Assembly (NCBI GenBank): GCA_902556355.1
Contig: CACDVW010000011.1
Span: 1 to 40,250, forward strand
From: an uncultured SAR86 cluster bacterium
GTDB lineage: Bacteria; Pseudomonadota; Gammaproteobacteria; Magnimaribacterales; D2472
Direction: 5' to 3'
DNA length: 40,250 nucleotides
The notes beneath the pieces were generated by a model. It saw nothing but the letters and a program-made list of their open reading frames with translations. It was not told the origin of the DNA and made no database searches. This document shows positions 22,205-22,688 of the stretch, piece by piece; the first letter of the stretch is position 1, and the number at the start of each line of letters is the position of its first letter. The position numbers and the translations under genes are program-made.

Positions 22205-22318
22205 ATGGATAAAGATGCGGGGTATGAAATATCAGAACAAATGCCTTATGAAGAATATCAAGAAAAATTAAAACAATATTGCCTCAATAAATTTCCAGAA
22301 AAGCTTATACCACTTTAA
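22205..22318 (+). pseudogene. 37-aa ORF or C-terminal gene fragment directly abutting the NTF2-like fragment
   Basis: MDKDAGYEISEQMPYEEYQEKLKQYCLNKFPEKLIPL*, followed by a terminator; no clear RBS. Confidence 0.4.
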
Positions 22319-22319
22319 A

Positions 22320-22347
22320 AAAAAGAGAGCATTTTGCTCTCTTTTTC
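22320..22347. terminator. Bidirectional Rho-independent terminator
   Basis: AAAAGAGAGCA-TTT-TGCTCTCTTTTT. Confidence 0.88.
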
Positions 22348-22362
22348 GTTAATTGAAAAACC

Positions 22363-22527
22363 TTACAAATAGTAAGGAAAGAATACATCCTTTTTAGGTT
22401 TAGACTTATGCTCAGTTTTATTTTGCATGCGTAAATTGTAATTAAGCTTGTTAATTGCGATTTGCAACATGACATTGTTTCCTAACTTAGGTGTATATTG
22501 TTTTTTTTGAATGTTTAAAGCATTCAT
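22363..22527 (-). CDS. 54-aa basic protein downstream of tandem glutamine riboswitch-like RNA
   Basis: MNALNIQKKQYTPKLGNNVMLQIAINKLNYNLRMQNKTEHKSKPKKDVFFPYYL*; strong AAGGAG SD; terminator follows at 22320-22347; absent from the ORF track because it is under 60 aa. Confidence 0.8.
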   Translation of the reverse strand: MNALNIQKKQYTPKLGNNVMLQIAINKLNYNLRMQNKTEHKSKPKKDVFFPYYL

Positions 22528-22548
22528 AACATCTCCTTTTTAAAAAGA

Positions 22549-22597
22549 TGCGTTCCTTCGGTATCATTACCTACTTCCGTCTCTTGCGAGATGAACG
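22549..22597 (-). promoter_or_regulatory. Glutamine riboswitch-like aptamer, proximal copy
   Basis: CGUUCA-[UCUC GCAA GAGA]-CGGAAGUA-[GGUA AUGA UACC]-GAAGGAACGCA; P1 CGUUC/GAACG closes a three-way junction; conserved CGGAAGUAG and GAAGGAACGC segments. Confidence 0.85.
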
Positions 22598-22604
22598 ATG
22601 ATAA

Positions 22605-22651
22605 TGCGTTCCTTCATCTTGCGACTACTTCCGTCCCCTTAAGGATGAACG
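22605..22651 (-). promoter_or_regulatory. Glutamine riboswitch-like aptamer, distal copy
   Basis: CGUUCA-[UCCU UAAG GGGA]-CGGAAGUA-[GUC GCAA GAU]-GAAGGAACGCA; same core, different helix sequences (helix-preserving variation). Confidence 0.83.
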
Positions 22652-22659
22652 ATTTAAAA

Positions 22660-22688
22660 ATATTAACAGAGAAAAAATATATATACAA
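22660..22688 (-). promoter_or_regulatory. Sigma70-like promoter for the riboswitch-54aa transcript
   Basis: TTGTAT-17 nt-TAATAT on the minus strand; expected start site just 5' of the distal aptamer. Confidence 0.55.

Follow-up and report, generated by a model that had tools for sequence, protein, structure and literature searches.

Tandem glutamine-I aptamers before a conserved SAR86 mini-protein: a possible RNA-based brake on nitrogen assimilation

A 2018 review described glutamine riboswitches as restricted to cyanobacteria; their associations with glutamine synthetase (GS), PII and ammonium-transporter genes came, in its account, solely from environmental sequences that had no host assigned (PMC6316151). 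The closest described systems are the gifB/IF17 circuit of Synechocystis and PMM1846 of Prochlorococcus, in which a glutamine aptamer precedes a small basic protein and an ON switch has been shown; DUF4278 covers the N-terminal part of IF17 (PMC6316151). The Downstream-peptide or glutamine-II class (RF01704) is likewise found before short ORFs of marine bacteria and has a similar ligand site (PMC6698751), but its fold is a pseudoknot. Tandem glutamine aptamers were noted early (PMC2864571), and the accessible part of a tandem catalogue gives 157 doublets and 4 triplets (PMC9481103); the tandem layout itself is already known for the glutamine-I class. As in that part of the catalogue, the locus described here has two aptamers in series and one apparent expression platform; it differs in coming with a named host, a target and an order-wide context. 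The kind of switch is thus known, and what is new is the host, the regulon and the controlled protein, which together suggest that nitrogen assimilation is braked through RNA.

The window, i.e. the whole 40,250-nt stretch of SAR86 DNA that was analysed, was searched with cmscan and gave two RF01739 (glutamine-I, glnA) matches, both on the minus strand. The best reading of the locus is a self-contained one-gene unit made up of a promoter, two glutamine-I aptamers, a gene for a 54-aa basic protein (family A) and a terminator:

22660 to 22688, minus strand: putative, weak sigma-70 promoter, TTGTAT-17 nt-TAATAT, read from the sequence just before aptamer 1
22603 to 22653, minus strand: glutamine-I aptamer 1 (RF01739, 59.9 bits, E 6.5e-11)
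22547 to 22599, minus strand: glutamine-I aptamer 2 (RF01739, 61.9 bits, E 1.8e-11)
22529 to 22551, minus strand: predicted expression-platform hairpin GCAUCUUUUU-AAA-AAAGGAGAUGU, which buries the Shine-Dalgarno sequence (SD) and takes in G59 and C60 of aptamer 2
22363 to 22527, minus strand: 54-aa basic protein of family A (MNALNIQ...KKDVFFPYYL), ATG at 22527, identified by homologues and pN/pS
22317 to 22346, minus strand: intrinsic terminator AAAAAGAGAGC-AAAAT-GCTCTCTTTTTTTT, read in the sequence, which ends the one-gene unit

No nitrogen genes adjoin the unit. The promoter-like TTGTAT/TAATAT pair is kept in several family-A relatives, and the upper limit of 22688 drawn in an earlier note on this DNA coincides with the -35-like TTGTAT; a generic promoter scan left the pair unranked and found no excess over shuffles. 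The hairpin and T run 3' of the ORF recur at 8 of the 11 family-A loci.

The earlier note had read tandem glutamine aptamers here, 7 nt apart on the minus strand, with P1 and the junctions kept while P2 and P3 vary and still pair, and had proposed an Rfam covariance-model check. That check has now been run and bears out the reading, since both copies exceed the RF01739 gathering score of 35 bits. Seven nucleotides separate CGCA of one aptamer from CGUUCA of the other, and 20 nt lie between the pair and the start of the ORF. P1 (CGUUC/GAACG) and the junctions CGGAAGUA and GAAG have the same letters in both copies; P2 is AUCCU/GGGAC in one and AUCUC/GAGAC in the other, and P3 is GUC/GAU in one and GGUA/UACC in the other. 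The note had offered glnA or Downstream-peptide as the class. Only the first of these stands: the Downstream-peptide class was rejected because the Rfam scan of the window gave no RF01704 match at the gathering threshold and RF01739 is the match. In the alignment the ligand-contact and bound-state nucleotides C1, G22, G23, C58, G59 and C60 are present and identical in both copies. C60 occurs in all 117 distinct glutamine-I aptamers examined, in which the core-proximal P2 and P3 pairs are 94-100% paired with 2-5 pair types and the most distal P2 pair is 79% paired. Chance is excluded by the E-values together with the finding that in 11 of 11 genomes family A stands behind this tandem leader, equally spaced; these are certainly glutamine-I aptamers, a known kind of RNA, and both would be expected to bind glutamine. 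They resemble other members of the class in covariance score, P1, loop-E junction, ligand-contact nucleotides, 5' UTR position and tandem arrangement, and differ in the SAR86 host, in a target without known relatives and in an anti-SD hairpin built on C60.

SAR86 bacteria are streamlined cells and among the most abundant in the surface ocean. The gammaproteobacterial host suspected in the earlier note is SAR86. Its opinion that such a host would be notable calls for moderation: roughly every second SAR86-order genome sampled carries the aptamer (RF01739 matches in 81 of 151 relatives), although among the other gammaproteobacteria sampled only one (G434) had it. G434, with a 1.1 Mb genome, has glutamine-I aptamers before gltB-like and gltD-like genes (loci L135 and L138).

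Downstream genes were read from about 95 aptamer loci and representatives were checked by Pfam. In the SAR86 order the aptamer lies upstream of GSII, GSI and glutamate synthase (GOGAT) genes, and of Gcw_chp outer-membrane protein genes with amtB close 3' on the same strand wherever positions could be compared. It also precedes genes for TonB receptors, circularly permuted ATP-grasp proteins, DUF4177-like and DUF4278 proteins, and four mini-protein families, A and three more unrelated basic ones (B-D). Tandem aptamers stand before every complete locus of families A-D and before the DUF4278 loci that lack a nested domain (see below), single ones before GOGAT, ATP-grasp and DUF4177-like genes. 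The ATP-grasp cases are loci L025, L026, L031, L060, L078 and L079. The host genome itself (1.07 Mb, 75% complete) contains, on a search of its own sequence, the two RF01739 aptamers of the window and no further ones. Within the accessible open-access literature on SAR86 riboswitches and glutamine synthetase we found no report of glutamine riboswitches in SAR86, and the SAR86 host regulon is new to the literature reached. A glutamine-RNA regulon can now be assigned to a host order.

The regulon coincides with losses of other nitrogen-control proteins. GlnE is absent from all 151 SAR86-order genomes (control genomes give matches), so GS adenylylation is not available. GSII is the sole GS in most genomes of the order and the only one found in the host. 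PII is missing from all genomes of genus g13 and from 9 of 10 of genus g6, and GlnD from both genera, absence being taken from full lists of the matching genomes; in these lineages it is GS itself that has the aptamer in front. Since two lineages can represent no more than two events, the relation between PII/GlnD loss and the GS aptamer is only a correlation. A far-reaching reading is that the glutamine-I riboswitch is the main nitrogen sensor of SAR86, controlling GS, glutamate synthase, the ammonium-channel operon and unrelated mini-proteins that brake GSII; that GS inactivation by proteins arose a second time, outside cyanobacteria; and that RNA replaced PII and GlnD altogether in two lineages. 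Taken as a whole this is doubtful.

What is the protein behind the window's aptamers? Family A (54 aa, ten K+R, two D+E) occurs in 11 of 151 SAR86-order genomes (the window protein and ten homologues), in three genera of one family; its closest relatives, with 91-94% identity, are in named SAR86 single-cell genomes. This search of related genomes for the same locus had also been suggested in the earlier note. The family has no match in Pfam, NCBIfam, PHROGs or PDB, nor could sequence similarity to DUF4278 or to another known family be detected; PF14105 (DUF4278) gave no match in the host genome, and comparison with mini-protein family B found no homology. A low-depth AlphaFold model has one long helix at residues 15-41 (pLDDT 71, pTM 0.36), which suggests a fold of one long helix with a loose basic tail; a PDB search with the model found no fold match, and the sequence matches were at chance level only. 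A phage origin was rejected: no relative was found on viral contigs, nor any PHROGs family. So was a mobile unit, because most genomes with family A have the unit close to one and the same epimerase-oxidoreductase block, the genes between varying; it has therefore probably been passed down at this site and lost from some relatives. Of the 18 genomes of the genus, 11 lack the family, including some that are >85% complete, so it is dispensable. It, too, is new to the literature reached.

Our overall reading, which we favour with some reserve, is that an excess of glutamine turns on a mini-protein which acts as a brake on nitrogen assimilation, GS being the likeliest point of action. Made at nitrogen excess, the family-A protein would lower nitrogen assimilation, the likeliest way being to bind the GSII-type glutamine synthetase, much as the riboswitch-controlled IF17 acts on cyanobacterial GS. 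Family A fits the GS inactivating factors in size, charge and glutamine-riboswitch leader; it is not detectably homologous to IF17 or DUF4278, and the SAR86 system differs further in having GSII and tandem aptamers, and in that the ON switch is here a prediction. An action of family A on nitrogen assimilation stands at about an even chance, and GS as its direct target is a well-motivated hypothesis that falls short of that. With PII and GlnD kept in the host, family A would not be its only nitrogen control.

The same riboswitch and ON logic could instead serve another target, such as PII-AmtB, glutamate synthase, a transporter or RNA polymerase. The host does have PII, GlnD and AmtB, DUF4278 genes lie within a few kb of amtB in several relatives, and several unrelated basic mini-proteins occupy the same slot, so no common target is required. 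Against this, IF17, the only characterised mini-protein under a glutamine riboswitch, acts on GS (PMC6316151, PMC7760959), and we consider a target other than GS rather unlikely. Either way, mini-protein effector candidates are now named and open to testing.

The direction of the switch was judged from the platform. The SD (AGGAG, 22537-22533) lies inside the platform hairpin, whose predicted folding energy of -7.2 kcal/mol falls to -3.3 when G59 and C60 are withheld, a cost of 3.9; predicted losses of about 2-4 kcal/mol result from the same treatment before families A-D, DUF4177-like and GOGAT genes. The observed SD burial is reached by 0.8% of spacer shuffles at the window leader, a significance found there and not at every leader. 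Leaders of families A-D and of DUF4177-like genes have the CAUCU/AGGAGAUG pairing, and GOGAT leaders a variant of it; the inner stem has other letters in family B and the DUF4177-like group, yet still pairs. Glutamine contacts the C1-G59 pair (PMC6698751), and the bound form has a G23-C60 pair, G22 and G23 being disordered when free (PMC5393176). Bound aptamer and hairpin thus both claim G59 and C60, and on this ground, not on forced-aptamer folding, a glutamine-dependent translational ON switch is the probable arrangement. Without glutamine the stretch just 3' of the aptamer-2 P1 would fold with the ribosome-binding site and block translation; at high glutamine the aptamer would close P1 (C1-G59) and form the long-range G23-C60 pair, taking two nucleotides from the blocking hairpin and opening the site. 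Two aptamers in series would give a steeper response.

When family-A leaders were folded with P1 forced and C60 blocked, the SD stayed mostly paired and was not released; any release would therefore be partial or ribosome-assisted. This persisting burial also favours a switch of opposite sign, in which bound glutamine stacks the 3' hairpin on P1 and represses a protein that the cell needs when nitrogen is limiting, as does the expectation that GS genes behind the same aptamer are glutamine-repressed. From that expectation OFF versions probably do exist, and the GS leaders differ from those of family A. Because the bound aptamer and the hairpin need the same G59 and C60 (PMC5393176), and because the characterised glutamine riboswitches before mini-proteins are ON switches (PMC6316151, PMC6698751), an OFF switch at this locus is unlikely.

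The conserved platform of the GS leaders is of another kind: there, instead of closing P1, GAAGGAAC can pair with GUUUaaCUUC. GS and TonB-receptor leaders share this platform, with a GUUAAAC/GUUUAAC hairpin and a CUUC that can pair with the aptamer GAAG, and many of them have (U)CCUGCA...UGCA upstream of the SD. Leaders of this type are at loci L004, L010, L013, L014, L018, L020, L022, L030, L043 and L070. This platform is possibly an OFF version of the switch.

A real small protein behind the aptamers, as the earlier note had supposed, is supported by codon-level constraint as well as by the homologues. pN/pS of family A is 0.13 within the genus and 0.05 across the last ten codons; gaps in the alignment are whole codons, 14 columns are invariant, including the C-terminal FFPYYL, and the last ten codons keep a fixed amino-acid motif (KKDVFFPYYL) with silent changes. 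Judged by these patterns, the ORF is under purifying selection. That it is non-coding, the conserved stretch being RNA only and the leader a glutamine sponge or small RNA, would suit a short unit that ends in a terminator and an ORF without a protein family, but is highly improbable given this codon-level pattern and an SD and AUG in place in 11 of 11 leaders.

Some glutamine-I aptamers carry an RNA domain of 61-95 nt, in every case examined within P3, in 25 SAR86-order genomes (loci L129-L134 and L142-L166) and on 29 viral contigs (L167-L195), the viral ones found by a pattern holding GCAAGUACC and GGGAACGAGACCGAA. A YRG-repeat (DUF4278-like) mini-protein mostly follows. Across 30 sequences GAAAACCUC, GCAAGUACC (with one exception) and GGGAACGAGACCGAA are unchanged, and 7 of 13 predicted pairs have changed on both sides. 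Rfam has no family for this domain and detects only the surrounding aptamer. It is a conserved, undescribed RNA of SAR86 and marine viruses, and could be either a second aptamer, making a composite switch, or a tertiary-contact domain. A 99-nt RF01739 match reported in cyanophage S-CREM1 (PMC9964418) may be of this nested form.
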